Below are positions 19,739-54,923 of a DNA stretch of 64,000 nucleotides, in pieces. Location of the stretch: assembly GCA_020746835.1 (NCBI GenBank), contig JAGPNK010000022.1:310001-374000 (forward strand), written 5' to 3'. The stretch is from Stachybotrys elegans. Taxonomy: Eukaryota; Ascomycota; Sordariomycetes; Hypocreales; Stachybotryaceae. The position numbers were made by a program, and so were the translations under genes. The number at the start of each line of letters is the position of its first letter. Position 1 is the stretch's first letter. The notes below the pieces were generated by a model. That model was not told the origin of the DNA and made no database searches. It saw nothing but the letters and a program-made list of their open reading frames with translations.

Positions 19739-20256
19739 TGCGTTGGAGAGTTTATTCTATCCGGAAGGTGATTTGTTGAATTTTATGAGCCTCGAATCCG
19801 CATCGGAATTACTTCAATACTCTTTCAAAGTGAGTCAAGAACAGTTCAACTCAAGAATTCAGTGCTGATCGTTACAGGCCCCTGCTTCAACAAGCAGTCA
19901 ATCTTCCGATGCATTGTGTGGAGTCTAATTCTGAACATGTCCCTATTCTCGCACCATCTCTTACTATTGCTTCTAATGCCTACGAGGGTTGAGGAGGACC
20001 TTGACGAGCCGTTCAACAATTTGTTGAAGAATCGCTTCGTTCCAAGTCGCCGGCGACTTCCCGGGTGCCGGAGGAAACGCCTTGTCCACAGCAATCTATC
20101 TATAGTCAGCTTCAACCCGAGCTCAGCGCCTTCCGCCCCGAAAGAGCCGGCATACAAGATGTGACAGTCGACGGTGATCCCAACGAGCTATCTATCAACG
20201 TTGCAACTGACCTGGGGCCGTACATCTCGCTGTTTGATGATGATGAGCTTGTCTAG
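19690..20256 (+). pseudogene. decayed coding region downstream of the receptor, family unknown
   Basis: Coherent peptide segments appear in alternating frames: NINDALESLFYPEGDLLNFM, then RPLLQQAVNLPMHCV leading to LAPSLTIASNAYEG, then VEESLRSKSPATSRVPEE running to DLGPYISLFDDDELV and a stop at 20256. One plausible donor/acceptor pair (GTGAGT, TTACAG) does not restore the frame, so one or more indels are needed. It could be the former C-terminal part of the receptor or a separate gene. I do not recognise the family. Confidence 0.4.
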
Positions 20257-21440: not shown

Positions 21441-21861
21441 ATGACCCGGTTTCTGGGGGTTCTCTATGCCGACCAAGATCGATGGGAGGAAGCAGAAGAC
21501 ATGTACAACCGCGCACTTCAAGGCTTTGAGAAGGCATGGGGACCAGAACAGACATTAACGCTCGACACAGTCCATAATCTCGGTTTTCTCTATGCCAACA
21601 AGGTCAATGGAAGGAAGCAGAAGACATGTATAACCGCGCACTTCAGGGCTACGAAAAGTCATTAACAATCCCCATGGTAAACACTTACCCCCCCTGCACT
21701 GACCACTATGGAGAATCTTGGAGACTTATTACGGGATGTTGGTCACCTTGAAGAGGCACAGAAGTATTATCACCGGGCAGAAGGCGGTAGTCATCTTGTT
21801 TATGGGTTTGAAAGTGAGAAATATCGAAGTCTTTCCGCTAAGTTAAGACCTCATGATTAGC
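21441..21861 (+). pseudogene. TPR-repeat relic, probably from an NLR C-terminus
   Basis: Three successive frames give TPR-type sequence. The first is FLGVLYADQDRWEEAEDMYN with GFEKAWGPEQTLTLDTVHNL; after a shift near 21600 comes GQWKEAEDMYNRALQGYEK; after another near 21690 comes TMENLGDLLRDVGHLEEAQK, ending at a TAG. Two frameshifts and the absence of an ATPase upstream show that this is a remnant. Its repeats differ from those of the three intact TPR receptors in the window, so it derives from a further family member. Confidence 0.65.
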
Positions 21862-23067
21862 GTGTGTTCATTATTGGGAATAGAGATGTGACAATCTCGC
21901 CAGCTGTTCATTATCTTTAGAAAAATTCATACTATTTCTGTAGCCCTAAAGTTATTGCCAACACAACTAGAGGCTTTGATCTGAGGTACATAAGATAGGA
22001 GTCTACAGTACCATTTGACATTCCGCGACCCTATAGTTATTATTCTCGTTTCTTTGAAGAGCCACTGAGATTAGATAATCGCAGACGGGAAGTATTCCGA
22101 GACCTCATGCGAGGTACTAGCAGTCAGCCACACTGTAGCTAGTGGAGACTGCTGTACTTAAAATAGCTACGCAATCCGTATACTTGCAATTACATCAATG
22201 TACATTACACTCGGATGCAACAGCCAATAGTGGCTGTTTCGGGTGGGTCCAATGGATGGGGTGGTTACAGTTTTGGACCCAGTGAGGTTTACTCTTGTAT
22301 CACAAAGTACCCAATTTAGGTTACAGAGAAAGATTGTAAGTGGAAAGAGGAACATAGTTTTGCACAAAACTGTATCAACTCCTGACTCCAAGTCATTTCA
22401 CCTGGTGCTAGGCATCCGTCCACTTTAGCATCAGGGTGTGGAAGAGTGGTATTGGGTCTAAATCGACACGGCGGTTCAGCAAATCCTGTATACCTATGGC
22501 CTTTTCCCATGTTGAGTGCAGCGTAGAGATATGGTAGGATGCATGAAATTATTTTAATTTACCGTTATTAGGTACATACATAATATATATAGCCACAGTA
22601 TACGAGTACCGGCTGTATAGTAGCCGTGATCTGCGTCAGCTTTTCACGAATACCGATACCAATGCGCTTTCTATACAAGCTAAAGATCCATAATGTGTCT
22701 GCTATCGTGTAAGATTATGCAAGTACTGAACCCACGTCTGGATATAAAATCCAATTCTGGCTCCTGAATATCACTGGGTCGGAACTCAGCGCTCAGATCC
22801 ACCCGTAATAGCCACTATTAGCTCTTGTAGTCGAGGGCAGTGTAATGGCAGATAGTCTCCACTGCGTTCTGGGAAAGGCGGATGTTTCAATTCAGTGATC
22901 TTCATCAGTTGCATTGGGTCGGGAAACATGAAATAAGCCATTACTGGTTGTTATACAATTGGACTATATTTAGCTCCTATCCACGTCTCTATGCACAACG
23001 ATAGAAAGGGTAACCATACAGCTTGCAATTTTACACCGGTTCTTTACATAGCACCTTGCTTTGTAAT
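21862..23067. other. intergenic, nothing recognised
   Basis: AT-leaning sequence with only short frames on both strands; no repeat or RNA gene recognised. Confidence 0.4.
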
Positions 23068-26558: not shown

Positions 26559-27035
26559 CTATATACGGGCTACGCTCTAACCATTTTGGTTTCCAGTGAC
26601 TGACCAACAGCATGAGAACAAAATGCCTACCTCTTTTGACATAGGAGTATCACATACTAATAGGTACTTAGCAAAAGCCTAGGAGCTAATACTAGTGGCA
26701 TCCAAGGGTCTCTCCTTGGCTTGATACGACCGTGGTGGCTAAAATCTAGTTGGCCATCTCTTGAATATGCCGGGATAAGCCACTAGCTCGGATGGATATT
26801 TCCTCCACTCAAGTCAAGATCATCAGCACATGAGTGTATTCCTACTTTACTCATCCGTACTCAGTCTCGCCTGATACCACCTTACAGGATCGCTGTGTTG
26901 CTAGGACAGACAGCGGATGCCTAGACGCGGGGTAACGCAAGCCCAAACAATCCCCACTTTTCCACGAATGCCCTCCTATTGACAATAACCTCAACGCAGT
27001 CTCATTCTCCTGGAGCATTGATCGAGGATTCCGCC
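26559..27035. other. upstream region of the HET gene
   Basis: No gene recognised. The frame of the HET gene is open to 26979, but only non-ATG triplets precede the ATG at 27036. Confidence 0.35.
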
Positions 27036-29090
27036 ATGCCAGAAATGGATGACAAGGGTAGTTCTCTATCCAGAATTGCGCGCCAGCAAAACGACTCTAT
27101 TGTGTCTCTCCTCATCGATATTGTGAGGAACACAGAGAAGACCCACAACAGAGTCTGGAGCTTTCTTGAGAATCTTGAGTGCCTACGCCTCCCGCAGCAC
27201 CTAGGTGGACAGGAATTTTGTGCTAAAGTCAACCGGGAGATGGTCGACGCTAGGCAGTTTCGTCGCTATGTGGCCTTGTCGTACACATGGGAACCATCAA
27301 AGCACGAACCCAGCTCAGACAAGTTCTATCACGTCCAGGAACCGCGCGACCAGCAGCACAAGCCCTCCGAGGTTCGAGACTGTGTTCTTAACCGCATTTT
27401 TAACTATATGCGAAGCATAGGCGTTGACCTTTTATGGATTGATCGGCACTGCATCGTTCAGGACAGAAAGGGCTGCGAAGATCCTGTCTGCCGACGCCAT
27501 GAGTGGTGCATCCAAAAGCGCGAGGGTCTGGCAGTCATGGACCAGGTCTACAAGCTGAGTGACTATCCTGTTGGGTTGCTAGGAAGGCCGATCAAGTCCG
27601 CCTGGGAGCTGAGTCTCCTCGCAAATATCCTTCTGGGCAGGTTCACCGAAGGCGATGGGGACCGGCTCTATTTGTCACGCAAGAAAAGCTGGCAGCAGGT
27701 GTGTGTAGCTGTCGATCTACTGCGCCGAATCACCAGTGACGATTGGTGGACGCGTGGCTGGATTTTCCAGGAGAATTATAGAGGGGGTACCAATATGAAG
27801 CTCCTTATCAAACACCCCGCAAAGCTCGAACATCAGAAGCGGCGGTATCTCAAAGAAGACGAGCGAAACCCCTCTGGTATCCCGGTATTTGGGGAGGTTG
27901 ATGGTGAGCTGTGTATCCGCTCAATCGATTTCCATGAGCAGGCCACACGTCTCTGTTTGGCGTGTCAGCAATGCAGCGGCAGATATCGAGGTCGCTCCAC
28001 TCCAGCGGCAATGGCGAGAATGAGCAGGACGATAACAAGGATACTTCATCGGGCAGGAAAATACACGCTTCTACTCAAATCGTCAGAACCATTGACGCCA
28101 CGGATCGTTGCCGACATCGACAGGCGACAGATGCATAAGCACTGGGACAAGCCTGACATCATTGCCAACTGTTGCGGCTACGCAACTCGACTAAATACAG
28201 AGCAACTAAAGACACGCAAAGTTAGTCTGAGCTTGTCTATTCTTGCGCAGTGCTTACTCAACGGCGAGGTCCTACATAACGGCCGTCAGCCAGACCCCAA
28301 GGCAGCCGACCTAACTGTCCCGCAATACCTACAGCGGGCTGTTTTCGCTAGCTTCTACAGCAAGACGATCCGACAGAGTCTAACATTTAACAAAAGCTGT
28401 CGCTTCTTCAGACCGACCCTCACTGAAGCCGGTATCCGAACTAGTGGCCATTTGTGGAAACTTTGCAAGACCATCGATACCAGCGGCTGGCCGGACGGCG
28501 GCATGTGGGTGGATGACCTTGACGGGAAACTTCAGCCAATTCAGCGAAGGCGGCTTGCATATTTCGTGGAGGTGCTAGAAGAGGAGGGCCATCGAGATCT
28601 TGCCACCACTTTCAGTACCTACCTCTCAAAGGACGCGCGACGTGCCAATATCCCGTACGGATGCCTGTCGTTTACCGAGCGTTATATGCTCACTATGGCA
28701 GGGGAGCTCGACCGCGCAATTGAACGGGGTGACCAGCTGATACTCGGGTCTCTTTGGAACCTACACAGCTCTTACAGCCCCTACATGGCCGTCTTCATCT
28801 GGAAGGACAGGAGCGCGAAATCATTCACAAGGGGCAGCTATGGTATTAGCGATTCCTTTGCATTCACGGCCTCCTGCCCGGAAAAGAGCTCTGATGAATT
28901 TGACCTCAATGATCTCGACCGACATGTCTCCTTTGAGGTCGACATCGATGGGCCCGTTCAAGATCACAACGAGCTAGTCCCAAAGCTGAAAATCAGGCGG
29001 TGGCTTCCAGGGCTGTGTTTCTTTGAGGGGGAGGGGAGAGATAAGGCTTTCTTTCCGTGGCCGAGCGATTTGACGAGAATCATCCCCTGA
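27036..29090 (+). CDS. HET-domain heterokaryon-incompatibility-type protein
   Basis: Intronless, 684 aa from the first ATG (27036). The HET domain is recognisable by its three motifs in order: RRYVALSYTWEPSKHE (about residues 76-91), GVDLLWIDRHCIVQD (about 128-142) and DDWWTRGWIFQENY (about 233-246). The remainder, about 440 residues, is a helical C-terminal region typical of large HET proteins, ending in LPGLCFFEGEGRDKAFF. HET domains are related to TIR domains and trigger regulated cell death when a fungus meets a non-self partner. Usually they are activated by NLRs or partner proteins, and several NLR genes lie on both sides here. The conserved Asn of the second motif (usually W.D..CI.Q) is replaced by Arg-His (WIDRHCIVQ). 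The gene looks intact. Confidence 0.85.
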   Translation: MPEMDDKGSSLSRIARQQNDSIVSLLIDIVRNTEKTHNRVWSFLENLECLRLPQHLGGQEFCAKVNREMVDARQFRRYVALSYTWEPSKHEPSSDKFYHVQEPRDQQHKPSEVRDCVLNRIFNYMRSIGVDLLWIDRHCIVQDRKGCEDPVCRRHEWCIQKREGLAVMDQVYKLSDYPVGLLGRPIKSAWELSLLANILLGRFTEGDGDRLYLSRKKSWQQVCVAVDLLRRITSDDWWTRGWIFQENYRGGTNMKLLIKHPAKLEHQKRRYLKEDERNPSGIPVFGEVDGELCIRSIDFHEQATRLCLACQQCSGRYRGRSTPAAMARMSRTITRILHRAGKYTLLLKSSEPLTPRIVADIDRRQMHKHWDKPDIIANCCGYATRLNTEQLKTRKVSLSLSILAQCLLNGEVLHNGRQPDPKAADLTVPQYLQRAVFASFYSKTIRQSLTFNKSCRFFRPTLTEAGIRTSGHLWKLCKTIDTSGWPDGGMWVDDLDGKLQPIQRRRLAYFVEVLEEEGHRDLATTFSTYLSKDARRANIPYGCLSFTERYMLTMAGELDRAIERGDQLILGSLWNLHSSYSPYMAVFIWKDRSAKSFTRGSYGISDSFAFTASCPEKSSDEFDLNDLDRHVSFEVDIDGPVQDHNELVPKLKIRRWLPGLCFFEGEGRDKAFFPWPSDLTRIIP

Positions 29091-32576: not shown

Positions 32577-35500
32577 TCACGTCCAATTTTCCAGAGTTGA
32601 GATCGATGATCGCGTATCGGGATGATCCGCTCCCAATTTATCCTGTCGGATGCGAATGCAGGTTTGCATCAAGTTGATAGCCTCCTCTACTCTTCCCATG
32701 CCATGTAAGGTGTAGGCCAGATTATTCATGCTCGTCAGCGTCGAGGGATGGTCTACCCCAAGCGTTGCCTTGCGAGTCTCCATCACTTGCACCTCAAACT
32801 TCTCTGCCTCTTCCCATCGGCCCTGGTTCCAAAAGGTTAATGCAAGATTGCCCATGCTCGTCAGCGTGTCGGGATGGTCCTCTCCAAGCTTCGTCTTGCG
32901 AGTCTCCATCACCTGCACAAAAAGCTTCTCTGCCTCATCCCATCGGCCCTGATTCCTATATATTAATGCGAGATTGCCCATGCTCGTCAGCGCGGAGGGA
33001 TGGTCCGCTCCAAGCTTCGTCTTGCTTATATCCATCACCTGCACCTCAAGCTTCTCTGCCTCATCCCATCGGCCCTGATTCCTATATGTTGATGCGAGAT
33101 TGGCCATGCTTGTTAGCGTGTCGGGATGGTCCACTCCAAGCTTCGTCTTGCTTATATCCATCACCTGCACCTCAAGCTTCTCTGCCTCATCCCATCGGCC
33201 CTGGTTCCTATATGTTGATGCGAGATTGGCCATGCTTGTCAGCGTGGAGGGATGGTCCTCTCCAAGTTTTGTCTTGCGAGTCTCCATCACCTGCACAAAA
33301 AGCTTCTCTGCCTCTTCCCATCGGCCCTGATCCCTGTATGTCGATGCGAGATTGGCCATGATCGTCAGCGTGTCAGGATGGTCCGCTCCAAGCTTTGTCT
33401 TGAAAGTCTCCATCACCTGCACAAAAAGCTTCTCTGCCTCCTCCCATCGGCCTTGGTCCCTATATGTTGATGCGAGATTGGCCATGCTTGTTAGCGTGTC
33501 GGGATGGTCCACTCCAAGCTTCGTCTTGCGGGCCTCCATCACCTGTACCTCAAGCTTCTCTGCCTCATCCCATCGGCCCTGGTTCCAAAATGTTGATGCA
33601 AGATTGGCCATGCTCGCCAGCGTAGAGTGATCGGCTTCGCCAAACAAATCTGTTCTTAGACGTCTTGCTTCTATGTTCAGCCCTTCTGCATCGCTCCATT
33701 TCCCTTCAAAGCTTAAGTAACCAGCCATGCAATGAAGAAGAGATGCTTTTGCCTCGGCTTCTTCTTCCGACTTAAACTCACATAATCGCAGCACCGAGTT
33801 TGCATGCGATAGGTAGGCAGCGCATGTCGTCCGAGTCTCATATGTGCCATATGGATAAAGATGCGATACCACCAGAAGTGCTTCTTTCCCAAACTGACTG
33901 ACTGTACCACAACTAATAAGCCACTTGCGCGTAACTAGTTGGACAAGCCGATGCATGTCGTAACTCCTATTGTTATTCTCGACCACAAAAGAAAAGGCTT
34001 TAAGAACCCCCAGTGCTTCCGTTAGCGCTATATCTGTATTATCTAATGGCTCTTCGCTTTCCTCCCGCTTGTTGTAAGACGAGAGAAATTCTGCCGGAAT
34101 TTCTTGACGATCCAGGAGACTCGTGAATGAGAGGAGCTCACTGGCCAAGCCGTGCTGCTGCTTGATCTGCTGGAATGAGAGAATCCACGTTTGTGCCACA
34201 GCCCGTGGAGCAGGTGAGTCTCGCCCATCAGTCTCAAACTCTTTGCTTAAAAAGTGAACCATGTTCTTGTCGCTGTCGCCTAGCAGCTGAAGGTAGGCTA
34301 GTACTGTAATACATGTCTCTTGCATGAAAGAGGCAGCCTGAGCAAGAGCCAATGGTAGATACTCCAGCCGAGAGGCCAACAACGATAAGTCTGTAGATGC
34401 TGTACCCGTATCGTCGAGTTTTGTACGAAGCAGCTGCACTGACTCGTTGTCATCCATCTGGGTTACTTCGACCGGCCTCTGTCCTTTGGCAAGTCTGACA
34501 CCTAGCTGCTTGTTTCTTGTTGTGGCAATAAGACACCCATGGCGACACTCAGGCAAGTAGGCTGACAGATTGCGTGCTTGACTTGGCTCAGCTGAGCTTG
34601 GGGCAGCCACCTGTGGTGATGATGGTGCGCCAAAAAAATAGCTGCATGTCATCTGCGTTATCAAGCACCATGAGCCATAGCTCGGAGTCTTTCGTTTCGA
34701 GCCAGTTTTTTACCACCAGCAGCAGATCGTTCTTGGGATCAACATGGCCAGGAATCTGATACTCTTCGGCGATAGACATGTACGATTGGTGAAAGCGATC
34801 AGCGTTGCTCGCGTGGACCCACAAGATGGATATGGCAGGGTTTGTCTGCCGCAACCAGTAAACATACGCTAGTGCAATTTGCGTTTTTCTGCTTGCTATT
34901 AGTTCCATTCCACTATGGAGGGAATCAGATCACATACCCTACACCACCTAGGCCAAAGAGTGACACTCTCTGATACGAGGTTCCATGTGTTGGTTGCCCA
35001 TGGCCTAGTTTATCCTTGAGCAGCCGAAGAATATCTAGGCGTCCAACGAAGTTTGGATTGCTTGGATATGGTACAACGACTATAATTCCATCAGCCTATC
35101 TGTTCCTACTTACTATTTCTCCTTACCTACACTTTGTCGTATCCAAAGCTGTGATCTTGCTTAAGGGTATCTTGCTGAGCAACTCCCTCGCAAACACCGC
35201 AGCGTTCCCCGCGGCGAACGAGCGCCACGCGTCGCTTTTGTGTGAGTCGGCATAGTCTGAGATACCTCGAATGACGAGGCATGGCCTACCGGCATCTACT
35301 CCTGCCGCCTCCATCTCGACACATAGCGCACCGCTGCATTGGTCTCGGATCTGGTCCCGGCGTATGCCATCCTGAACCACGGCATTTCCCGTCGCAATCC
35401 TGCCGCGGTGGAAGATAAACGTGTTCGCCTCCTCCTCCGACCGTGCAGGCCGGTCCACGAGCTCAGCAGTATTGCAGCCGACGCATCTATCATTATAGTG

Positions 35501-36130
35501 GCCGCTATGCTGGTGGTCTGCCCGGAACAGCTGATCTCGATCGAGCCCCGGATGCATGAACTTCCGCCTGTGCTTTGACTGTAGCAGTCGTTGCTGATGA
35601 TCCTGGAACGTGCTTTGATCCATCTCGTGGTCGGAGACGACCTTGGCGAGTGCATTAAGCAGAATTCGGTCTGGCTTGTCAATTGTGCCCAGCGCCTCCA
35701 ATTGCCCGCCCGGATGCCAGCGACCGAAGTCATAGTATATGCATGCAGGGCCTCCGTCGCCCGGCCAGCCGACCACAACATCGCCGAGGTGCACGTTCTC
35801 GGTAGGGTCATCGGATTCGTGCGCACGTGGGATTCCGCCGCCAATGCCAACAAGGACAGCCATCCTAAGATTGGTGAATGTCTTGAACATCGACCCCGTC
35901 ACGCGTCCCGCATTAACGTTGCCTGTCATACCGGGCGGACATGTGGCGATGACCACATTGTGGCCGGCCAGTGTGCCGCAATTGTAGATATTGTCGTCGT
36001 AGGCAATATCGTAGTCAGGCGCTTCATGCTCCTCATCAAGCATGAGGCGCGATGGCAGCAGCTCGAGATCGGATACTGGTGCGATCCAGGCAACATGGTA
36101 GTCGGCTGGGCGCAGCTTTCTGCGTGACAT
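32577..36130 (-). CDS. PNP_UDP-NB-ARC-TPR NOD-like receptor with one homopolymer frameshift
   Basis: Exons (minus) 36130-35131, 35079-34938 and 34888-32577 with 51 and 49 bp introns; the second intron splits the P-loop codons. Residues 1-330 form a purine-nucleoside-phosphorylase-like effector domain (ADYHVAWIAPVSDLELLPSR, then GHNVVIATCPPGMTGNVNA, VLVGIGGGIPR, LCVEMEAAG, IRGISDYADSHK). NB-ARC: NPNFVGRLDILRLL, FGLGGVGKTQIALA, LWLMVLDNADD, GCLIATTRN, LEYLPLALAQAA, MHRLVQLVTRKW. Eight 42-residue TPRs end the protein. PNP domains of such receptors act on purine nucleosides or nucleotides when the sensor is triggered. At + 34632-34638 a run of seven A's (T7 in the gene) shifts the frame. With six the gene is a perfect 1151-codon frame. 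Either a single slip has inactivated the gene or this is a base-calling error. Confidence 0.85.
32680..33640 (-). repeat. eight tandem 126-bp TPR-coding units
   Basis: Each unit encodes NQGRWDEAEKLEVQVM or a close variant followed by KTKLGxDHPxTLTSM. Units are so alike that long frames also exist on the opposite strand. The array is a candidate for copy-number change between strains. Confidence 0.9.
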
Positions 36131-36532
36131 GGCGAACTAGGTAGAATGCTGTCAAGTGAACAAAGCTCGGTTTGTTTACGGTAATCAAGGTGACGAGTGC
36201 AGAGTGAGGAGTACCCTCTACTTTGCAGAGAAGGTAAAGGGCGAAGTGGTCAGCACGATACCGAGCTTTGCGGCTGAATGTGTTAGAATGGCAGCCTGAT
36301 GGCACTGTGGGGCTTGGTCGGATGCCTGACAACTGCCCGAGCATTGATTGGATATCATTTATCGGTATACCAACAGTGGCTGAGTACATAATCTGCCTAA
36401 CAAGGCTTACTATGCCGTGCGCTCATCTAATTTTCTTTTACAGCTGAACCGCTCCTCTATAAGGCTAAGCACTAGCCAGTACCATTCACGTCACCTAGCT
36501 ACCAATACTACGCTATATACATCTTTTCCGAC
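36131..36532. promoter_or_regulatory. divergent promoter region between NLR and DUF6594-like gene
   Basis: 402 bp between two divergent start codons. TATA-like strings are not obvious; an AT-rich stretch with TTTTCTTTTA occurs at 36430-36440. Co-regulation of the two genes is possible but not shown. Confidence 0.35.
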
Positions 36533-38659: not shown

Positions 38660-39450
38660 TGGGCCAAAGTACCTAAGAGGTTCCACTTTTGGTCCCCTGC
38701 AAGTATCTTTCATGATGGCCAGGGCCAAAACTGGACCCCATTGTACGGGTATCCCCTCTCCCCTCTCCCATCTCCCCTCCAGTTCCTTCGTCCTCTTAGT
38801 TACCACCCGCCATAGACCAATTCCTCAGTATGGCTCCTCCACTAACTCGATCCCAGCACGGCCAGATCCTGCACATGATCAAAGGAGCCTTCTCTGACAA
38901 AGCTATACTGGATGTTGTGCCTTGCACTATCCGATCACTCCGTAAAATACGATCAACGTTCTCGCGATTCGGAACAACAACCGTACCGGTACCTGTGAAC
39001 CGGACTGGCCCTGACCCTAAGATTGCCCCTACAATGGCGGCTGTGCTTTCCAATCGGCTGGCCAAAGAAGCTGAGATGACCGAATGTGAGATGATTGGTT
39101 ACATTAGAGAAGAGTTCGGCGAGGAGGTATTGGCTACCGCGATATCCTGGGCACTCAAGAAGCGTAGGACAAAATTAAAGGTAATGAGGCATGTAGCACA
39201 GCAACAAGTCCCTGATCTACAACACTTTTATTACTACCGGCTTAAAATGATGGGAAGCCGTTCATATCACTACATATTTATTGATGAGAGCGGCTTCGAG
39301 AGACCAGGCATGTTTTGAAAGAAGGCATGAGCTCCAAAGGGGATCACCCCAGTGCAGGCTTGGTTTGAGCGTGAGGCTAGGGTACGGTTGATTGCGGTGT
39401 ATACACAGAGGGAGCCTCCTCGAAGTCGCTGGTCTGTATCCCATTGGGGC
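38660..39450 (+). mobile_element. Tc1/mariner-type DNA transposon relic
   Basis: An open frame 38830-39318 encodes a transposase N-terminus (helix-turn-helix ending in CTIRSLRKIRSTFSRFGTTT) and reaches the first catalytic Asp in SYHYIFIDESGFE. It stops at TGA 39316-39318, then a second TGA follows, but the same frame continues as APKGITPVQAWFEREARVRL. TGA codons where Trp or Arg is expected fit G-to-A (RIP-like) mutation. The rest of the DDE domain is missing. Upstream, CAGTGGGCCAAAGT at 38657-38670 next to TA, followed by TTCCACTTTTGGTCCCC, looks like a terminal inverted repeat of the same superfamily. No right end was found. Confidence 0.6.
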
Positions 39451-39478
39451 ACACGAACAGGAAATCCCACATACTGTG
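39418..39478. repeat. short dispersed repeat, copy 1
   Basis: CTGGTCTGTATCCCATTGG and flanking bases, through GAACAGGAAATCCCA, match a stretch at 47829-47882 at most positions. On the minus strand both copies can be read as GIQTSDF, with DFLF a few codons before it, so the repeat may derive from coding sequence of a mobile element. Confidence 0.5.
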
Positions 39479-39579
39479 GTCCGCTGGAATCAGAGGAGGT
39501 AGCCGCAGGTGTGCTGAAGCCAAGCTCATAGTCATCATAAAAGTCAAAATATGATATTGAAAGCCAGTGTCCGGCATGA

Positions 39580-39715
39580 CGTCGAGAGGCAGAAAGAGAG
39601 GGAGAACAGAGAGAGGGGGGACAGAGAGTGGGCGAACAGAGAGAGGGAGAGCAGGGAGAGGGAGTGTCGGAGGGTGGGGGGTGGGGTGGGGTGGGCAGAA
39701 GGTAGAGGGCGTGTG
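39580..39715. repeat. GA-rich low-complexity tract
   Basis: Imperfect repeats of GAGAGAGGG and AGCAGGGAGAG type followed by a G-rich stretch (GGGGTGGGG). It produces long artificial Pro/Ser/Cys frames on the minus strand. Simple-sequence DNA, no gene. Confidence 0.8.
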
Positions 39716-40543
39716 ATCTGCTGGAGCCATTTCTAGATGTCATCTTACCTACTCTGTAGCAATTGGAACTGCTCGTGGGGTTGCTCACGACAAAAAAGGG
39801 GGCCCGGTGGGGTATTTATATTGCTAAAGCTAAAGATCGGGATGACACAGTGTGCACACTAGATGCACTGTATTGTAGCGGTGGTACAGCGGTTTGGTGA
39901 ACTCCATGGCTAGATCGTCATCCACGGCTTCTGGAAATATGAGCCAGAGTACGGGCTGCTACGTTCTCTAGTCTGCCAATTCCGTGTGATTAACCTAGCA
40001 GGGATTGCAGGTGAAGAAGCCAACTGCCTGCAGCCTGTTCTCGATTTAACCCCTCTGTTACTAGTTTCCCTGAAGATCGCTTCATTGGTATTAAAGATAG
40101 ATATATGTTGTAAACGTAGGGACACTGTGACTAAAGCGGGCGATGATTCGAAGTGCGACGTAGGCCTCGGGACCGGCGCGTAGGCGTCTTAGGGCCCAGC
40201 TGTTAGCATGACATGTGTGTAGAGATGATCATAACCTACATCCTGCAGGGGGCGACGCGACTCTGAATGTGTTCTTTGGCGTCATTGGTGCCGAATAGGT
40301 TGCGTGCGTGTTCATAGTGACTTACAATGCTTAACATGCAGGTCAAATTTGGGTAGCAATGTCAGAGTATTTAAAGTTGTCCGTAAAAGCTAAATTTGGC
40401 TAACACTGATTACTGGTACTCCCAAGTCCCCACCTCCGAACCAGGCATCCAATTCGACACATACCGCACTGCATCACGGCGAGCTACGTATGGGTGCCAA
40501 ATAGTTGGCCAAGGACCTTTGAAAAGGTAACGATGTGCGTTGA
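39716..40543. other. intergenic, nothing recognised
   Basis: No supported gene. The right end contains the 3' flank of the GH64 gene. Confidence 0.35.
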
Positions 40544-41869: not shown

Positions 41870-42089
41870 TTGTATTGCGTATAAAGCCCAGGAAGGCAGA
41901 CACCCTAAGGTGCATTAGACAAGACTAGGAAAGAGAGAAAGGGGAATGACTGGCTAGCTTGCTCTAGTCTTTGCCTGTATAGGAGCAAAATATGGCCTTG
42001 CGTAAAACAGATACACAATAGCCGTTTTATAAATATGAACAGTATATTTATATATACATACATACATACACATTACTATTAATTTTATA

Positions 42090-42207
42090 GGTTATCTTAG
42101 GTATACTTAGAAAAAGTACTGGATGGGCACCTAATCCAGTATTGGAGGCTTATACTAGCTTATTAGGAACAGAAGAGAGCATTGTTCTTTTGTACGAACT
42201 AAATGTA
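42090..42207 (+). pseudogene. 5' piece of a membrane-protein gene cut by the NLR element
   Basis: A frame running from an acceptor-like TTTTATAG reads STGWAPNPVLEAYTSLLGTE and continues SIVLLYELNV, ending within a codon of the left terminal inverted repeat. It is coherent, on the same strand as the 3' piece at 47039-47632, and ends exactly where the element starts. The 5' exon(s) further left are not resolved. Confidence 0.55.
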
Positions 42208-42316
42208 AGTAGAAGTCAGGTTTAGTGTCCGTCAATTTAAACTTTCACTCTTTCTAGAAGGGTCCATTTTTGGCCCCGCCTGGCGCAGGCACAGTGTGTG
42301 GCTTGCTTCCAGAAGT
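42208..42316 (+). repeat. left terminal inverted repeat
   Basis: Begins AGTAGAAG after TA at 42206-42207 and includes GGGTCCATTTTTGGCCCCGCC. Pairs with 46930-47038. The motif GGTCCATTTTTGGCCCC is close to TTCCACTTTTGGTCCCC at 38681-38697 in the mariner relic. Confidence 0.8.
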
Positions 42317-42742
42317 CTCTTGAGTCCCTTACCTCTAACAGCCAGCTTTTAGTGCCTTAGGCATTAAACGAATTTTATGACTAAGCCCTGGGAAGAAAGA
42401 GTAAGCGGAATAAATGATCCAGCAACATTGCCATCGTGATCACTTATACCGAGCGCAGTGGTTGCAGGGTTCAACAATGGTACTGCCTCCTGCCTTCTCG
42501 TACATATGGAACAGTATACTCATGCCGTATTGTCCAGAATATTCCTCAGTGCCGCCATTTAAGAAGGATAAACATCGTGGCTAACGGCTCAGTTTAGTGC
42601 ACTAGAATATTCTAGAATATGAGATCAATGCATATAATCAGGAGCTCCCCTATGACCCTCCCAAGCAGAGTTGTTTTACAAAATAATATTTTCTACTAAC
42701 CAATGGAAGAAGCTATTAGTTTTACATACGCTATACAGTAGT

Positions 42743-45700
42743 TTAAGTTAGCTTATCTGTGTATATACAGATAAAAGTGACTCTTCCAGATGGAGAACCA
42801 ATTACCACTCTGGATTCTGAGATAGCGACACAGTTTTGGGGGGCTGGCCGGAAGTTCACAGGCAACCACAGTATCTTGTGCCCGCCCCATGTAATCCAAT
42901 AGCCATCTTCATCCAGCCCGCATCGTGATCGTATTGGGTTGCTAACATCCAAAGGTAGGTTGGATGGTAGGCGCGACAAGTGAGTAATATTTATCTTAAA
43001 AATCGTGGTGTCTGTGTATAGGTGGAAACCGTCCGTAGTGAATGATAGCAGAGATGTTGCTCGAGCGTTGAAAATTTGCAGACACTTGCCGGTCGCGGCA
43101 TCCCAGAGCCGAGCGGTGTGATCCCATGAGGCTGATGCAAGATGCTTCGCATCCGGCGAGAAGACTGCTGGGTATACATTGTTGCTATGGCCCTCAAGTG
43201 TCTGGAGGCATTGGCCAGTCTCGGCATCCCAGAGCCGAATGGTCTTATCACGCGAGGCCGATGCAAGATACTTTGTATCTGGCGAGAAGACCACCGAGAG
43301 TACCCCACTGCTATGGCCCTTGAGTGTCTGGAGGCATTGGCCTGTTACGGCGTCCCAGAGCCGAATAGTGTGATCATATGAGGCCGATGCAAGATGCTTC
43401 GCATCCGGCGAGAAGACTACTGACCTTACCCCGTTGCTATGGCCCTCAACTGTCTGGAGGCATTGGCCCATCATGGCATCCCAGAGCCGAATGGTATGAT
43501 CCCATGAGGCCGATGCAAGATGCTTGGCATCTGGCGAGAAGACCACTGAATATACCCATCGGCTATGGCCCTTAAGTGTCTGGAGACATTGGCCGGTCAC
43601 GGCATCCCAGAGCCGAACAGTCTTATCACCTGAGGCTGATGCAAGATGCTTTGCATCCGGCGAGAAGACCACTGAGTATACCCCGCCACTATGGCCCTCA
43701 AGTGTCTGCAGGCATTGGCCGGTCGTGATATCCCAGAGCCGAACAGTCTCATCATGTGAGGCTGATGCAAGATGCTTTGCATCCGGCGAGAAGGCCACTG
43801 ACCTTACCCTATCGCTATGGCCCTCAAGTGTCTGTAGGCATTGGCCGGTTGTGGTATTCCAGAGCCGAACAGTCTTATCATCCGAGGCTGATGCAAGATG
43901 CTTTGCATCCGGCGAGAAGGCTACTGACCTTACCCAGTGGCTATGGCCCTCAAGTGTGTGCAGGCATTGGCCGGTCACGGCATCCCAGAGCCGAATGGTG
44001 TGATCATATGAGGCCGATGCAAGATGCTTCGCATCCGGCGAGAAGGCCACCGAGTTTACCGGACTGGTATGACCCTCAAGCGTCTGCAGGCACGAATCCC
44101 AGTTCTGTTCCATAGTCCCAGATACAGACAACCAAGCCCATTGTGCCTTTAAGAACACCTTTCGTATAGGGCTTTTGAGTGGTAAGAAGGCGATAAGAGC
44201 GTAGATTTGAAGCGGGTAAGAGTCAATAGTTGACAGATAGGTCAGGCTAAAACGGAAAGCATCATCAAGTAGTAGCAATCCTTCTTCGTTTTTCTGCGGC
44301 TTATATAGCAATGAGTATCTTTTGCTGTTTAATTAAGATAGGCAGAACGCACCTGTAAAACGGAACGCAATGTTCGCAGAATGCCAAGGCTGTCCGATGC
44401 CCGCCCTACCAGACTCAGTGTTTCAATCCAGTATAGCAGGTGGCTAGAGAGGAACAGGTGAAGTTCATCACCCCAGATGTGTATGTCTCCTTTCTTTAGG
44501 TGATCGACCCAATAAAGACAGGCATATTCAAGCTCCGGCGGGATATGGTAAATTATCGTTTGCTGATCTATATCGGATCGAGCAATTCCTGGTCTTCGCA
44601 AATCGCACATATCCCTTCGAAGCTTTTTCTTCATGACGCGGAGGCAATGGACCACTATATCTTGATGTATCTGCTTCTCGTCTATCCAAAGTCGTGTTTT
44701 CTTCCGTGTCTCAGTATCAACTAAGAAATCCCGAAAAGATAGATGAAATAGGCGTACAGGATCCTTCGATGACATAGGAACATGCAGAACTGAATGAAGC
44801 ATCTTCAGTTGATCGACAATCATGGCTTGTGAAACGCTCAGCAATCCCTCCAGAGCCGAGATCGAAAGGGGACTCTCAAGAGTAATAATGATGCCGACAA
44901 GCTTTCGAAGCTGTTGAATGACTTCATCTCTCTTTCGTTCCGATTGAATACCGACGATTTGTCGATTCAATATTGGCAAGTACGTCGCATCGAGGCCGGA
45001 GGTTGCACTCTTGCCCTTGTACGCTAAAATCTCCTCGAGAAGCTTGTCAGGGTGGCCATGACTGGGTTCGGAGATGAATCGGCAAGCAGTTGCGGCGGAG
45101 ATAAAAAGTGGCTTTGCGAGGTCCACCAAAGCCTTGATCCTGGAATCGCCCGGCCAGTCTGGAGGTAGCCGTGTTTCCACAACCGTAAGGTTATAATCAT
45201 CCCGTATCGATCGAAACTCGTGTTCTAGAAATACCGAGATATCGTGTTCGATAATGTCGGATCTGATTTCGTGAAGAATGAGATCTTGGTAGGTGCCCTG
45301 TGCCTTTGCGAACCCAAGGCGGATCGGCAAATCCGGCCTGCTAGTCACAAACACTTTCACCCCGGGTATTTGTGGAGACTGCATGCGCGCAAAGAGATAG
45401 ATGATGCTTCTAATCTTGTCATCGCCCTCGCATTCATCTAGTGCATCCACAATGATGACAAGTGGGCTCGACAGAGTGATCTTGGACAAGGGCTCAAAGA
45501 TCAACTTCTGGAACTGCTCCTGCATAGCTGACCCCGAAATTGTCGAGTCTTTCTCGATTGTGCTCATCAACATCGGCGCTAAGCTCGGCTCTTTATCTGC
45601 CAGCTGGCGGGCTATCGTCGTCATGAACTTGGTGGCATACCCTCGATCAGCCTCTCCTCTTTTGAAGAAAAAGCTGGCACCGAGGTGTTTTGTCCCAGAC

Positions 45701-46446
45701 AACGAGCGAGCGATGGTCCGTGATATGGTTGACTTTCCCGTCCCAGCCATGCCATTCAACCAAAAGACTGACTTGGCGCTAGGATCGTGAACCCATGCTA
45801 GGATCTGGTCGAGGAGCTCCACTCGCGTATTTTCAAGGCAGGTTGGATTCGACTCTTCGTCATGGGAATTAAACGAGGCACCCTTGGCGATAGTAAGCCG
45901 GTCAAGCACCACAACCTGATCAGTGTTCAAGGCAACGGCACTATCCAATGTTTCTGTTAGCTCGAAGGGTCCTGTAAGTGTGATGAGGATAATCGTGACT
46001 CACAGATGGTCATGCTGTAGCGCCAGGGAAAGTGTCTGCGTGTAGCCTGCAATCTCCTGGACATCCTTCTCCACCTCTTGGCTGCTGAGAGGCCATCTTA
46101 AGGCAGTGAGTCCGAGACGGGCCCTAATCTTATGCCTTGTTCCTTCTGGTCGGAGCTTTTGCTCGAGCTTTTCGAGTTTCCTCTCCAAGGCTTGAAATTT
46201 GCATAAGCTGTCTCGGAGCCCGGCCTGCAGCTTCTGGGAGCTTTTAAGCCTCGCGGCAGTAGGACCGGTGAGCAGCCTGTCGATGTCTCCTGCGATCGCA
46301 CCAAGATTATTAACCTCTTGCAGGAGTCTCTGTACATCGCTCTCAGCATTCTTGACGTCTTTGATGTATTGTGAGCATATCGAAGCAATCTTGGCCGACA
46401 AGTCGACGACGGCGATAATACTAGCCGCGACGCCGAGCCCTTCCAT
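42743..46446 (-). CDS. Helo-like/NACHT/WD40 NOD-like receptor (HNWD-type architecture)
   Basis: Exons (minus) 46446-46004, 45940-44353 and 44293-42743, introns 63 bp (GTGAGT, GCTAAC, GATAG) and 59 bp, total 1194 codons (1193 aa). Residues 1-150 are the helical N-terminal domain of fungal STAND proteins (MEGLGVAASIIAVVDLSAKI), related to HeLo-type cell-death domains. NACHT: P-loop WLNGMAGTGKSTISRTIAR near 207-225, Walker B LVIIVDALDECEGDD near 310, VFVTSRPDLPIRLG. Eight WD40 repeats of 42 residues fill about 750-1086, and a 107-residue tail ends the protein. The layout is that of Podospora HET-D/HET-E and NWD receptors, where WD40 repeats bind a partner and the N-terminus triggers death or membrane damage. 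The gene is intact and is the only cargo of the TIR element. Confidence 0.9.
43069..44080 (-). repeat. eight tandem 126-bp WD40-coding units
   Basis: Each unit encodes GHS..V.SV.FSPDAKHLASAS.D.T.RLWD...GQCLQT. Apart from a few residues the copies are nearly identical at protein and DNA level. Variation is concentrated after GHS and around ASAS.D.T, the positions known in this family to line the binding face. Confidence 0.9.
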
Positions 46447-46929
46447 GACAGAATGGCTTGGTGGGTTTGAAGTCCCTGCTTACCCTTTGGACTGGACTGT
46501 GAGGACGAGCCAGCTCTGGCGGGGTAGTTTAGGCTACGGAGTAAGAGTAAATTCAGCTCCCTTCTCATGATTGGCGCGATAAGGATAAGTGAGGCGATCT
46601 GTGTCACGTGCATCATAGGTAACCATGCTGCCACGTATCATCTGTTCGAGTCATCCACATGCGGGTCAGCTCTCGCAGCCAGGCGTTCGTCAAGAGTGCA
46701 CGGGATCGTTTGGGCGATGTCCTTGATCGGGACATTATCCAGGAGCAGAGCATAAACCTTCTCCTTCGGAGTTAGTCACGGGGCCATTAGGGGATAAAGC
46801 ACTCTTTTGAGCCAATTCTGAGGCTTCTGTTGTAGGAGACAGAAGTGGCGGCCTATCCACTCGTGGATGGCCGGCCAATGTTCGTGTCTGAGGCATCAAC
46901 TTGGTTGTTAGTGCTAGAGTGCCCACGGT

Positions 46930-47038
46930 ACTTCCAGAGGCAGGCTAGGCACTGCGCCTGTGCCGCGCGGGGTCAAAAATGGACCCTAGTTGAAAGAGTC
47001 AAACTTTAGATCGGCGGACGCTAAACTTTAACCCTACT
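46930..47038 (-). repeat. right terminal inverted repeat
   Basis: On the minus strand begins AGTAGGGTTAAAGTTTAGCG, preceded by C and TA, and contains GGGTCCATTTTTGACCCCGC. Ungapped match to 42208-42316. Confidence 0.8.
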
Positions 47039-47632
47039 GTATATTCCAACTGGATGTGTTAATTAGAAGCTATATCTTAAGCAAGCAATATGAATTCAAT
47101 GCAAAGTACAATGACATGATTCTTGAAAATGCTAAGGAAGTCTCTTATCTACACTCCTTGGGGGCAAAGGCTTGTACATGGCTGTTGCTCGCAGGCTATC
47201 TGACATTTCCATCGACATTTGCATCTCTACAAGATTCCCAATTCTTGCATAAAAGTGGGAAAGCTGGAAACTATATTGCTTCTGCGGTTGAGAATGTCCC
47301 ACTGCTCTATGTTGCTTCTTTCTGTTGCGCCTTTGCTGCTATTGGTCTCATCTTCTGGGTTAGATGGAGGCATAACTATGTCTTCTTGATGGATCGAATA
47401 TTTGAGTAAGTGTCCTGCCATGGTCAAGATCAGAATATCTAATTTCCCGACCAGGCCTGTTGTGATCTACTCCTTTATGGGCTTATTGCCAACTTTACAG
47501 AACGTATATGCAGTTCATAAAGGAGAATGGTCTATAACGGCTACCATTACTGGTTCTATTGTCTGTGCATGGTTTGCCTTCTTTATGATTATATTCTCAG
47601 TCTACAGATTTTGGTTACTGCAAATATTGTAA
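47039..47632 (+). pseudogene. 3' piece of a multi-pass membrane-protein gene cut by the NLR element
   Basis: The frame opens just inside the right repeat (from 47032) with IFQLDVLIRSYILSKQYEFN and has no ATG before Met at 47113. It contains GAKACTWLLLAGYLTFPSTF, then a helix at VPLLYVASFCCAFAAIGLIF. A 47 bp intron (GTAAGT 47406 to CCAG 47452) joins RIFE to PVVIYSFMGLLPTLQNVY and a last helix, ending at TAA. Four hydrophobic segments indicate a membrane protein of a common uncharacterised fungal family. The 5' part lies on the far side of the 4.8 kb element, so the gene is disrupted, unless the element is removed as an intron. Confidence 0.65.
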
Positions 47633-48741: not shown

Positions 48742-48943
48742 TTCCGTTATTATGAGCAAGGGCTGACTGAAGAACGATGTAGAGCATAGAATTTAGATCT
48801 ACCAGCTCAATGTATTTAAAAGAAACTCTTGCTAATTCCTACCTAGTCCTAGGACAAATATGAGCTAGCTCTAAAGTCGTTTATTGCTTTTAGCTTTCCG
48901 CATGTCCTAGGACAAAATATGAGCTAGCTCTAAAGTTGTGGAA

Positions 48944-49381
48944 GCAGAAACTTAGAGCTAGCTCAAATATAGCCCCTAGGACAGCTCTAGCGAGTCCTAG
49001 AACGAGAGCCGGTTCTGGGACGAGAGTGGGTTCTAGGACGAGAGTGGGTGTTAGGACAAGAGTGGGTTCTGGGACGAGAGCTGGTTCTGGGACAAGAGCC
49101 GGTTTTGGGACGAGAGTGGGTTCTAGGACAAGAGCTGGTTCTGGGACAAGAGCCGGTTTTGGGACAAGAGTTGGTCCTAAGACAAAATATGAGCTAGCTC
49201 TAAAGTTGTGGGTGCAGAAACTTAGAGCTAGCTCAAATGTAGTCCCCTTAGAGCTAGCTCATATGTTGTCCCAGAACTGGCTCTTGTCCCAGAACCCACT
49301 CTCGTCCCAGAACCAGCTCTCGTTCTAGGACTCGCTAGAGCTGTCCTAGGGGCTATATTTGAGCTAGCTCTAAGTTTCTGC
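48944..49381. repeat. foldback palindrome with an 18-bp minisatellite loop
   Basis: The arms 48944-49043 and 49282-49381 are inverted copies, with three mismatches in the 100 positions I compared. The loop and inner arms consist of 18-bp units of the type GGTTCTGGGACGAGAGT, about nine to ten copies at roughly 49000-49165. The self-complementary GAGCTAGCTC recurs, with AAAGT attached, at about 48863, 48921 and 49191. The short frame through it (Gly-Thr-Arg repeats) is an artefact. It resembles a foldback element. Confidence 0.85.
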
Positions 49382-49440
49382 TTTTATCATCCCACAACTT
49401 TAGAGCTAGCTCTAAGTTCTAATCTTTAACCCCACTATCC

Positions 49441-49968: not shown

Positions 49969-51637
49969 CTAGACGTTCGTGTTTCTTTTCAGATGGCATA
50001 CAGCTTCTTCAAGACGCGAATTGACGTCCAGGTCATCATTCGGCAACAATATAATGGCATATAGCCCTGATAAGCACGCCGAGTCGAATACTGCGCCTGG
50101 GGTCATCAGAGGTTCGCGCTCCGTTGAATATGGTATAAAGCCGTCGTCCTTATACTGCTCTGCTGTACTTTCCACGACTGAACGGTCAACGGCTACTCTG
50201 CGGTCGATCTGCAAGCTACCTTGTCTGAAGGTATAGAACGATATTGTGGCAGGATGAGGCTCGGGAAGCTGGGCTTCGAGATATTGGCTGGTTATATGCC
50301 TAGCTTCGCCCCTTTCTTCTGTCGTCAAGATCTCAGTTGCAGCTGCATTTTGCATGTGTGTATCTCCTGCATCCTCAGAACTGCCTTTCCGCGATGCCGC
50401 TTTCATGTCCGTTAGCATAGATGGAGTGAGGTCGAACTGCTTTATGTTTCTGCCAAAGAATGCAAAGTACATTGCCCTTAGCACGAAGAAAGAAGTGAAT
50501 TCCTCTGTCTGTGCATGAAGGTTATGTATGAACAGCAATTCCCTGTCTTTTTCGTATGTATTATCATAGGGGATGCCGCTGCGTCTCCTCGGGTTTGGAG
50601 TGCTGCAAAAGGAGGGGATATGGTCCTGCCGCTGGATACATATACTTTCACTATTTGACTGCTCACTACCTGGCGCCACGAAGCCAAGACGGTTGGCGAG
50701 GCCAGAAAACTCGCTCAGGACGTCAACTTCTGCTTCTTGGAGCTCACATTTCGCCAGAAGTTGTTTACCATTACTTTGTCGAGGCCATGCCATTGACTTC
50801 CAATTCCTCATGACATACAGCCATAGCTGGCGTTGCGCCAGATCAAAGCGAGCATCTGCAGGAACGGATAATTGATAGAACACTCCGCTTGATACCTCGA
50901 CTGGCATGGTGCCACCACCTTCAGTCGCTGAAAACGAGCCTTTCAAGATGGAGTCTACAGTAGGAGGCGGCACCCTGTCGTAGGGTTTGTTACCTGGCGG
51001 GCGCTTCCTCTTTGGAAATTTAATAACGTGACGAATGCTGGGCGCGATGGTGTCGATAAAATGCAAATCTTTTAGGAGTGTAAACAGACTTAGAACGGGA
51101 TGGTCAATTGAGAGCAGCGAATTCCACAATTCATGCCGTTGCGCTTGGGTGAGAGCGGTGAATATCTGGCCTGCCTGTAATTTCTCGAAGATTTCTCTTT
51201 TATCATCCTGGCAGTATTTGGGGCATTTCCCCTCTATTGCAGTGACAGAAATAGAGTCTGTTTGTGTTCTTGCGTCCTCCTGCGGTATGAGTTTGGTCCA
51301 GTCTGCTGATACTTGGGAGTTATAATGAATAACCTGCTATGGAAAGTCAATACCATATTCGTCGTGGACTGTTTATCTCTACCTCGGCATATCTTGAGTA
51401 TTTATGCCATTGACTGACGCTCCAGCCACCCCGTAGACCTTTTATCGTAAGCGGTTCGTCGAATGACTTGGCAAGTGCTTCGTGGTCAAGAAGCGCATTC
51501 ACACATCGGAGAGCATGTTTAGACGAAAGCTGAGATATATACTGGCTTTCGGAATGTCGATCCTTCTTTAAGCGGGATTCTCGTATCTTACAATAAATTT
51601 CTACATCCGAGGTGGACTCCAATTTCCTCTTGCTCAT
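49969..51637 (-). CDS. DUF3723-like fungal protein
   Basis: Exons (minus) 51637-51383 and 51333-49969 with a 49 bp intron (GTAGAG donor, TTGACTTT branch area, AGCAG acceptor), total 540 codons (539 aa). Recognisable conserved blocks include CVNALLDHEALAKSF, then EIFEKLQAGQIFTALTQAQR, SVFYQLSVPADARFDLAQRQ-type sequence and ELLFIHNLHA. This pattern reminds me of DUF3723, a family with many members in accessory regions of Fusarium and relatives and of unknown biochemical role; the assignment is from memory of its pattern. A conserved Cys/Gln segment (LAKCELQEAEVDVLSEFSGL) may matter. The gene is divergent from the pseudokinase-like gene, with 208 bp between starts. Confidence 0.65.
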
Positions 51638-53125: not shown

Positions 53126-53207
53126 ATGGCCTTATATTTTGACTTCCATACCTGCTTGATTGCTTTCCACCTTGTCATGTAAGATTCTAGAAGAATCCAT
53201 CAGTTAC

Positions 53208-54923
53208 ATGGCATTCATAACTGTGGATAGCAGCCGTCTGTACGCGCTCGCATTTAGTGGTCTTTTTATCATTTTGTTTGTCGTGGCCTTGTTCCATCCA
53301 TTATTCCTACGTTTCTCAAAGCCTGTTGCTGTCTTCATCAACAGGGCTCTTTTCTATACACCACTTCTTCATCGACATAGGTTCTTCGGTCCATGGACAA
53401 CAGCTGAGTTCGTGGTTCAATCCGGCTACGTTATCGCAAATCTTGTATCAATTTCATTTAATGCATCCTCCGTCTCCATGGCTTCGCTTTGTGCAGGTAG
53501 ACTGGCATTGTTTAACATGATACCCCTATTCCTGAGTCCTGATTTGGCCTTCCTCGCCGACAGTCTCGGGCTGCCTCTCAGGGTTTTTCGAAAGGTGCAC
53601 TGCTCGTCAGGGGTCATGACGATGATGATGACTCTCGTACATGTTTGCCTAATGGCATTCCAGAAAAGAGCACAGGATCTCTACACGTTGTTGGCAGGTG
53701 CATTTTTACCCAATCGCCTAACCTATTTTACTCATTTATGTAGGGCGGACTTGCAATACTGCTTGCGGTAGTGCTATCAGCTCGACTTCTCCGCAAGATG
53801 CTCTACGAAGGCTTTCTCCGAATTCATCAAGCACTAGCAATCTTTGCTGCTTCTTTGATATGTCGACATTTGCTGGCTGTTCCCGATTTTTCCTGGTTAT
53901 ATCTTTATGTCTATGCAAGTGTGGCCTGCTGTCTTAATATTTTCTATCTAGCACTCACGTTGTATCGAAACGTGGCCAGGGGGAAACCTTTTCCCCGTGC
54001 ATCTCTCAAATCCCAGGGAGGAGGCACAACAATTATTGTGGACCTGCCACGACCAGTCCATATCGACGCTGGGCAGTACGTGAATTTATGGATTTGGGCT
54101 CCCAAAATAAGCTTTTGGACATGTATGCAAAGCCACCCGTTTACGGTAGCTTCTTGGTCGCCTGATGGCCAGGTCAGGTTGGAGCTGTTTGCCAAGTCTC
54201 GCAGAGGCCTGACTTCAAAGATGACTGGTACTCCACAGACTGATACTTCAAACGTCCCTTGGTTGAAGTGTTTAGCCTTTTTTAGTGGCCCACACGGATC
54301 TCGAATTGATATATCGGACTATAAGTCAGCAATTATGGTAGCAAGCGACTACGGTATTGTTGCAATGTTACCATTCCTCCAAAAGTTCGTTTATGGCTAC
54401 AAATTCTTCACCGGGCGCATTTGCCGGATCCATATAATATGGCACATAAAGACAAGTGGTCTCCCGGCCATACAACACATCCTTAATCAGTACCTAGGCG
54501 ATGCTGAGCTGAGAAGTGTATGTTTATCTGGTTTCTAAAGCTATAACTGACATATTCTGTAGGTTCTACAATTATCGGTGTTCAAAGAGAGCGACACAAG
54601 GATGAACTGGGTTGGATCCCATGGGCGTTTGAGTGTCTTAAATGAGGCACCAACAATCTCGGAAATCTTTCTGGAGGAGATAAATGGGGATTTTGTCACG
54701 CACTCTGACCAGGACGAGAGTTCCCAGCAGGTAGACAAGTTTATAGCAAATCCCGCTAAGCTTCTGGTACTCGGTAAGGCAATCCAGGCCCCGATATTTC
54801 CCTCCTCGCTGATATACCATAGTATCTGGTACCGGTGAGCTCCGAGACAGAGTGAGGAAGGAAGTCCGGAAGCATTTATACGAGGATATGGAACTGAGGG
54901 AATTGGATTACCAAATACAGTAA
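53208..54923 (+). CDS. ferric-reductase-like transmembrane protein (FRE family)
   Basis: Start ATG 53208. Three later junctions are clear: introns 54518-54562 and 54774-54822, with the first intron beginning at 53698. Its acceptor is ambiguous: the TAG at 53743 breaks the frame, the TAG at 53771 keeps it, giving 515 aa but losing a short hydrophobic stretch. Features: several TM helices with the paired His of a haem-binding core (VFRKVHCSSG, then LRIHQALAIFAASLICRHL), the FAD motif HPFTVAS, and an NAD-domain end KLLVLVSGTGELRDRVRKEV. The usual GPYG is GPHG here. Such proteins reduce Fe(III) or other acceptors at the plasma membrane using NADPH. Neighbours do not indicate a siderophore cluster. 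Confidence 0.8.

Follow-up and report, generated by a model that had tools for sequence, protein, structure and literature searches.

We analyzed a 64,000-nucleotide (nt) stretch of the Stachybotrys elegans genome (the window), corresponding to positions 310001 to 374000 of contig JAGPNK010000022.1 (C15; C numbers denote contigs of this 43.4 Mb genome, which is assembled in 61 contigs), and found that a 4.8-kb element at window positions 42208 to 47039 is very probably a non-autonomous Tc1/mariner-type DNA transposon that carries an intact NOD-like receptor (NLR) gene as cargo and that derives from a longer element by a deletion of about 2.3 kb. The element is bounded by inverted arms of 137 nt that are 73% identical and separated by 4557 nt. 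The arms were detected as a gap-free alignment, the extension of which both outward and inward required small gaps, and a BLASTN comparison of one arm with the other gave 74.4% identity across 125 nt. The local alignment score of the arm pair was 65, whereas dinucleotide shuffling of the 500-bp stretches around the two ends, repeated 300 times, gave 17 at most. On the basis of the arm alignment and matches elsewhere in the genome, the left terminal inverted repeat (TIR; the L end) was placed at 42208–42344 on the plus strand, on the 3′ side of the NLR gene, and the right TIR (the R end) at 46902–47039 on the minus strand, upstream of the gene; homology to other R ends continues inward as far as 46696. 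The first-pass annotation of this DNA had described gap-free inverted repeats of about 109 bp: the repeats are real, but they are 137 nt at 73% identity, and the right boundary is one base beyond the position 47038 given before. Its statement that both outer ends meet TA was correct, with TA dinucleotides at 42206–42207 and 47040–47041 as the putative left and right copies of the target-site duplication.

The receptor gene enclosed by the TIRs is on the minus strand, join(46446..46004, 45940..44353, 44293..42743), and encodes 1193 amino acids (aa) without internal stops; the introns, of which two are predicted, measure 63 and 59 nt. In this gene model, and as assigned by Pfam, exon 1 (46004–46446) encodes an N-terminal PF17111 domain, exon 2 (44353–45940) a NACHT NTPase (NPHP3_N/NACHT), and exon 3 (42743–44293) WD40 repeats with a 126-nt period and high internal similarity. 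We take PF17111 to be the Helo-like domain, although the Pfam copy used labels it PigL_N. The combination of an N-terminal domain, NACHT, and repeats in an open frame with predicted introns is the architecture of a fungal NLR (STAND receptor), and the initial description of one intact Helo-like/NACHT/WD40 gene is thus confirmed. The receptor may function in non-self recognition.

Related receptors are present between the same kind of ends elsewhere in the genome. Of 50 genome matches to the NACHT region, seven shared 78% identity or more with the window sequence, whereas the eighth shared 45%, and all seven adjoin ends of the window-element type. The order and orientation L end–NLR–R end is repeated, with both ends present, in the window, in C32, and at C47:14596-19427, C22:110025-125271, and C7:16846-22596. 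When the C22, C7, C47:1-7264, and window copies were compared, the flanks differed and the similarity stopped at the ends. The best protein matches to the receptors were from Paramyrothecium foliicola (82–84%).

The search for related ends gave at least 22 genome matches for the left repeat and at least 21 for the right repeat. A 29-bp end pattern starting with TA followed by CAGTAGGG had 17 genome matches at no more than three mismatches, and the reversed control had none; because the pattern was drawn from these same ends, its exact matches are in part built in, and more altered ends, such as the left end of the window element, are outside the 17. A sharp start adjacent to TA was found in 19 of 21 aligned ends, the exceptions being C5 and C7:5078, and several unrelated flank sets were present among the 21 ends compared. 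Flanks are shared by the window, C32, and C47:14596; by C35, C7:158907, and C40; by C16, C5, and C7:5078; and by C38:7394 and C46. Copies with the same outer 30 bp, which the first-pass annotation had proposed to look for, are present at different places in this genome.

Sites lacking the element were sought by joining the flanks of each element, with one TA kept, and searching the same genome. It was found that all three NLR elements with joinable flanks have at least one empty site. The window element has two, C33:26620-27422 (89%) and C29:112249-113060 (88%), which are continuous across all 800 bases of the joined flanks. The C22 element has empty sites at C29:86104-86756 (96%, bases 158–800) and C33:56153-56594 (89%, bases 158–588), and the C7 element at C22:101990-102770 (98%, bases 1–784). 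The C47:1-7264 copy was left out of this count, because the contig ends before its right flank and the alignment of its left flank starts some bases from the TA. A single TA was present at the junction in all three C22 and C7 empty-site alignments, and TA is present on both sides of the filled sites, so that the C22 and C7 elements show TA insertion with duplication, as in Tc1/mariner elements. No extra footprint bases were found at any of five junction alignments. Matching DNA is thus present elsewhere without the element, and therefore such receptors appear to have moved by transposition. The mobility suggested by the first-pass annotation is supported by the other copies and by these uninterrupted sites. 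In addition, the end at C22:146803 could be matched to the window flank as far as position 56685; no match for the other side was found in C22, so that this empty site is only half shown.

A transposase frame enclosed by ends of this kind was found in two relatives. In the C47:1-7264 and C22:110025-125271 copies, the region from the right end to the receptor contains a frame for a Tc1-type transposase, with a conserved open reading frame (ORF) of 442 aa on the opposite strand. The Pfam DDE_3 domain was matched at 2e-26 in C47:224-1216 and at 4e-25 in C22:124027-125127; the C47 transposase has DD34E spacing, by count, and the best match of the transposase was a P. foliicola protein (95%). No complete transposase was found by Pfam among the ORFs of the window element, which retains at 46695–46787, on the minus strand, a remnant of the first 33 codons (76% aa identity, frame broken). 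Comparison with C22, which matches the window element on either side of the junction, places at 46696 a deletion of about 2.3 kb of C22 that comprises the transposase frame and the 442-aa ORF. Because this stretch is missing and the 33 transposase codons are kept, the alignment indicates that the window element arose from a longer element by internal deletion. It has its ends in common with transposase-bearing relatives, as is expected of a non-autonomous derivative. Therefore, the earlier description of an element with an NLR gene as its only cargo and no transposase inside holds for complete genes, and it omitted the remnant and the longer relatives that carry a transposase.

The 442-aa ORF had no matches in Pfam, NCBIfam, or PDB sequences. 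It had 80 homologs, of which the named ones are mostly from Fusarium and others are from genera such as Colletotrichum, Thelonectria, Aspergillus, and Penicillium; the best match was from P. foliicola (91%). In five genomes, a homolog and a transposase of the same family have adjacent locus tags (LZL87_014163/014164, CTRU02_215494/215495, FCULG_00012813/00012812, MFIFM68171_09704/09705, and HG531_008221/008220), and because of this adjacency the ORF probably accompanies the transposase of this clade as a regular partner. In Fusarium sp. DS 682, the NLR IL306_002692 (P0157), which is 48% identical to the window receptor, has a tag neighboring that of a 442-aa homolog, IL306_002693 (P0261), and both are listed with a contig of 10,403 bases; this pair may represent the same cassette in a different genus.

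We propose a model in which the ancestral element would have had the order R end–transposase–442-aa ORF–NLR–L end, an arrangement of which this genome retains two relatives. The CAGTAGGG ends would be bound and cut by a transposase like that at C47:224-1216, the block would be inserted at a TA with duplication of this TA, and elements without their own transposase would be mobilized in trans, possibly up to the present. The receptor would move with its introns and upstream region and would stay an open gene, and copies at different sites would come to have different N-terminal domains on one NACHT-WD40 core.

The ratio of nonsynonymous to synonymous substitution rates (dN/dS) in the NACHT exon was 0.14–0.23 in all 15 pairs of six receptor copies (528–552 codons, by a Nei-Gojobori style count, with C32 excluded as a near-copy). 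Therefore, the NACHT region of the receptors is under purifying selection. The C7 and C16 copies have a window-like core in which a PNP_UDP-type domain replaces PF17111, assigned by Pfam for C7 and by 45% similarity to C7 for C16. The PNP domains of C7 and C16 are 45% identical, whereas that of C7 is 78% identical to that of the P. foliicola receptor P0117. A NACHT tree of 22 sequences, consisting of the six element copies and 16 relatives chosen from 120 listed, gave support values of 100/100 for a Paramyrothecium/Stachybotrys group and 100/99 for the pairing of C7 with C16; P0117 was placed with other P. foliicola receptors at 89/91, which is under the mark for sure support. Because of this tree and the PNP identities, it appears that the cores tend to group by species and the N-termini do not, a pattern that fits either the exchange of N-terminal domains or the homogenization of cores. 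In the tree as drawn the six element copies do not form a single clade, with C47:1-7264 outside, and the well-supported branches are compatible with one origin of all six. We regard it as an evenly balanced question whether this Tc1-type lineage, with its transposase, 442-aa partner, and NLR, is a moving and swappable receptor cassette in which the core is selected and the N-terminus (PF17111, PNP type a, or PNP type b) changes. The association may predate this species, because proteins closely related to the receptors (P0113, P0114, P0115, and P0117), to the transposase (HJFPF1_10727), and to the 442-aa ORF (HJFPF1_12332) are present in P. foliicola.

Other ends of the family have different neighbors. 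The R-type ends at C5:1433178 (L028) and C7:5078 (L017) are upstream of a more distant NLR gene of NACHT_N-NACHT-WD40 type, followed by DUF3435 ORFs; the NACHT frame of this gene is open in C5 and contains stops in C7. The ends at C7:158907, C40, C35, and C61 adjoin TPR-type NLR sequence. At C7:158704-158907 (L020), C35:4576-4779 (L026), and C40:70653-70858 (L025), two ends about 109 bp apart are in an apparent direct tandem at the 3′ side of this NLR, and C61 has the inner end only. The R-type ends at C38:7394 (L022) and C22:146803 (L016) have interiors in common (96% over 2.1 kb and 94% over 1.9 kb) and different flanks; the C38:7394 interior contains an ORF with a PAS domain, and these interiors are possibly non-NLR cargo.

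A second TIR element was found in the window at 13980–22372. It has a 33-nt inverted repeat (91%) that reads CAGTGTTGTGCAAAAGGATGTTCCTC next to a flanking TA and is unrelated to the ends of the first element, and it carries an NB-ARC/TPR receptor at 17681–19738. Its joined flanks match, without interruption, C15:113662-114471, C29:125358-126169, and C33:13289-14096 (94% each), C32:111742-112558 (87%), and C47:7273-7847 (87%, bases 235–800), and exactly one TA was present in all four junction-aligned empty sites (C15, C29, C33, and C32). The ends had two other genome matches at no more than three mismatches. No transposase was found among the four ORFs of this element scanned with Pfam, and its interior had no similarity to the transposase of the first element.

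A related two-gene Tc1 element, with a transposase, an ORF of the 442-aa type, and ends of TA followed by CAGTAAAATTCATGTTTAGC, is present as relic and fuller copies at window 38830–39815, C32:119133-121383, C47:19709-21968, and C15:140501-142760; one such copy is inserted, in the C32 duplicate, at the TA equivalent to window 42034–42035. Window positions 48850–49412 contain a dense array in which 18-nt repeats occur together with GAGCTAGCTC palindromes, and its inverted arms of 118 nt are 92% identical; the GAGCTAGCTC motif is also in the flanks of the C16, C5, and C7:5078 ends.

Several observations weigh against the interpretation of the window element as a transposon with NLR cargo. The L end of the window element lacks the C of CAGT, and both of its empty sites read aaatgCA/GATTCC (the slash marks the junction) where the filled site reads aaatgTA/TATTCC, which is of equal length and means that the empty sites lack the TA. 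The C16:287119 receptor copy has a left end only, with no right end found up to C16:295000, and in the C47:1-7264 copy, which has a left end, the right end is truncated where the contig starts. Because of this truncation, and because the transposase frame in C22 has no start Met, unlike that in C47, this genome showed no element that combines two complete ends with a complete transposase. No NLR was seen in the stretches fetched beside the ends at C38:7394, C22:146803, C46, and C15:145490. Finally, the window, C32, and C47:14596 copies are one insertion that was duplicated with its host segment rather than separate transpositions: their flanks are homologous for kilobases at 96–99%, and because this homology continues far outside the ends, we did not accept the existence of three near-identical copies as proof that the element transposed. 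These shared flanks, and the duplicated contexts of other ends (C5 with C7:5078, and C35/C7:158907/C40/C61), would be expected if the copies had spread by segmental duplication only and the inverted repeats were incidental; however, we consider this very unlikely, given that the flanks of the C22, C7, C47:1-7264, and window copies differ, that similarity breaks at the ends, and that the empty sites of three elements are joined at the junction base. The difference of about 26% between the L and R ends, and the R-type ends at C38, C22:146803, and C15:145490 that are partnerless in the fetched stretches, would fit two unrelated solo repeats that flank a resident NLR by chance. This possibility, which the first-pass annotation had named as one that would overturn its reading, is contradicted by the recurrence of the whole block in the same order and orientation at five places and by its absence from the empty sites, and it is exceedingly improbable.

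The missing TA at the empty sites of the window element could also mean that the element was ancestral at C33, C29, and C22:102 kb and that the empty sites are products of precise excision. The lack of extra footprint bases at the five junctions, and the divergence of the window empty segments (88–89%) relative to the 96–99% identity among the filled copies, make such an origin highly improbable, and in any case excision would also imply mobility. A further possibility is that the NLR moves mainly as a passenger within a giant host segment of Starship-like character, in which the small element is a relic. From about 13.6 kb on, the window holds a large segment of which parts have parallels on C29, C33, C32, C15:113-139 kb, C47, and C22. 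This segment carries genes for DUF3723 (49969–51336), ferric-reductase-like pieces (53160–54538), HET (26925–29090), PNP (35123–36136), and several NLRs, and DUF3723, FRE, NLR, and PLP genes are listed among Starship accessory genes in PMC12506042. However, no DUF3435 captain was found among 24 window pieces scanned, which represent part of the ORFs of the window, and inside the large segment the small element shows precise empty sites of its own. We therefore consider it possible but rather unlikely that the NLR moves mainly with the large segment. The parallel copies and the Starship-accessory-type genes indicate that the small element may lie within a larger mobile segment, much like ToxTA within the Starship Sanctuary, and mobility of the small element and of the large segment can both be true together.

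The interpretation of the window element as a transposon with NLR cargo was compared with known systems. The window element and its relatives, as a family, resemble fungal Tc1-like DD34E transposons in their TA target, CAGT termini, and a DDE_3 transposase with DD34E spacing. Classical Tc1 elements contain one transposase gene, whereas the clade of the window element has a conserved second ORF with its 80 homologs and, here, also an NLR gene. The receptors share with PNP_UDP- and PF17111-NACHT-WD40 fungal NLRs the tripartite architecture and WD40 repeats of high internal similarity, and many of their relatives among the protein matches are named HET-E-1-like; in contrast to those NLRs, the genes described here are inside a transposon and have varied N-termini on the same element-borne core. 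Starships are also reported to carry NLRs, in one case a NACHT-WD40 (PMC12506042 and PMC12134995), but these are elements of tens to hundreds of kb with a DUF3435 tyrosine recombinase, whereas the window element is 4.8 kb, with TIRs, TA junctions, and DDE relatives, and no DUF3435 captain was found in its ORFs, so that it does not qualify as a Starship.

The nearest precedent is ToxTA (formerly ToxhAT), which is described in PMC12506042 and PMC6737239 as a 14-kb non-autonomous Tc1/mariner-type transposon of wheat-infecting Dothideomycetes with 74-bp TIRs and a TA target-site duplication, nested in the Starship Sanctuary. Its cargo consists of several genes, ToxA foremost, and includes a Patatin-TPR protein linked by the authors to the NLR family; the authors could not name the transposase that moves it. 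By this description, ToxTA is like the elements found here in its long TIRs, TA duplication, and NLR-linked cargo, and possibly also in its nesting in a giant segment. It differs in that its NLR-like gene is one of several cargo genes, whereas an NLR is the sole complete cargo here, where the same ends enclose a transposase frame in relatives and versions of the receptor are present at several sites. Among the papers listed in searches of the open-license literature, no report of NLR cargo on a Tc1-type element with its own transposase was found. Therefore, the first-pass view that the configuration is not known to be described stands in that no equal was found, and it is tempered by the partial precedent of ToxTA. 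As far as open papers show, what is new is an NLR as the sole complete cargo, relatives that combine the same ends and the same receptor with a transposase, the presence of several filled sites and of empty sites within a single genome, and the variation of the N-terminus on a common core.

Fungal NLR repertoires differ widely in number and domain make-up. In a recent survey of the genomic organization of fungal NLRs (PMC12258605), the terms transposable and transposon occur once each, in relation to targets of genome defense and to repeat content. The finding of receptors as cargo of simple TIR transposons makes receptor gain and loss between strains, as well as the exchange of N-terminal domains, directly testable. 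If the cassette interpretation is true, transposition would both spread and recombine the receptors of the fungus.

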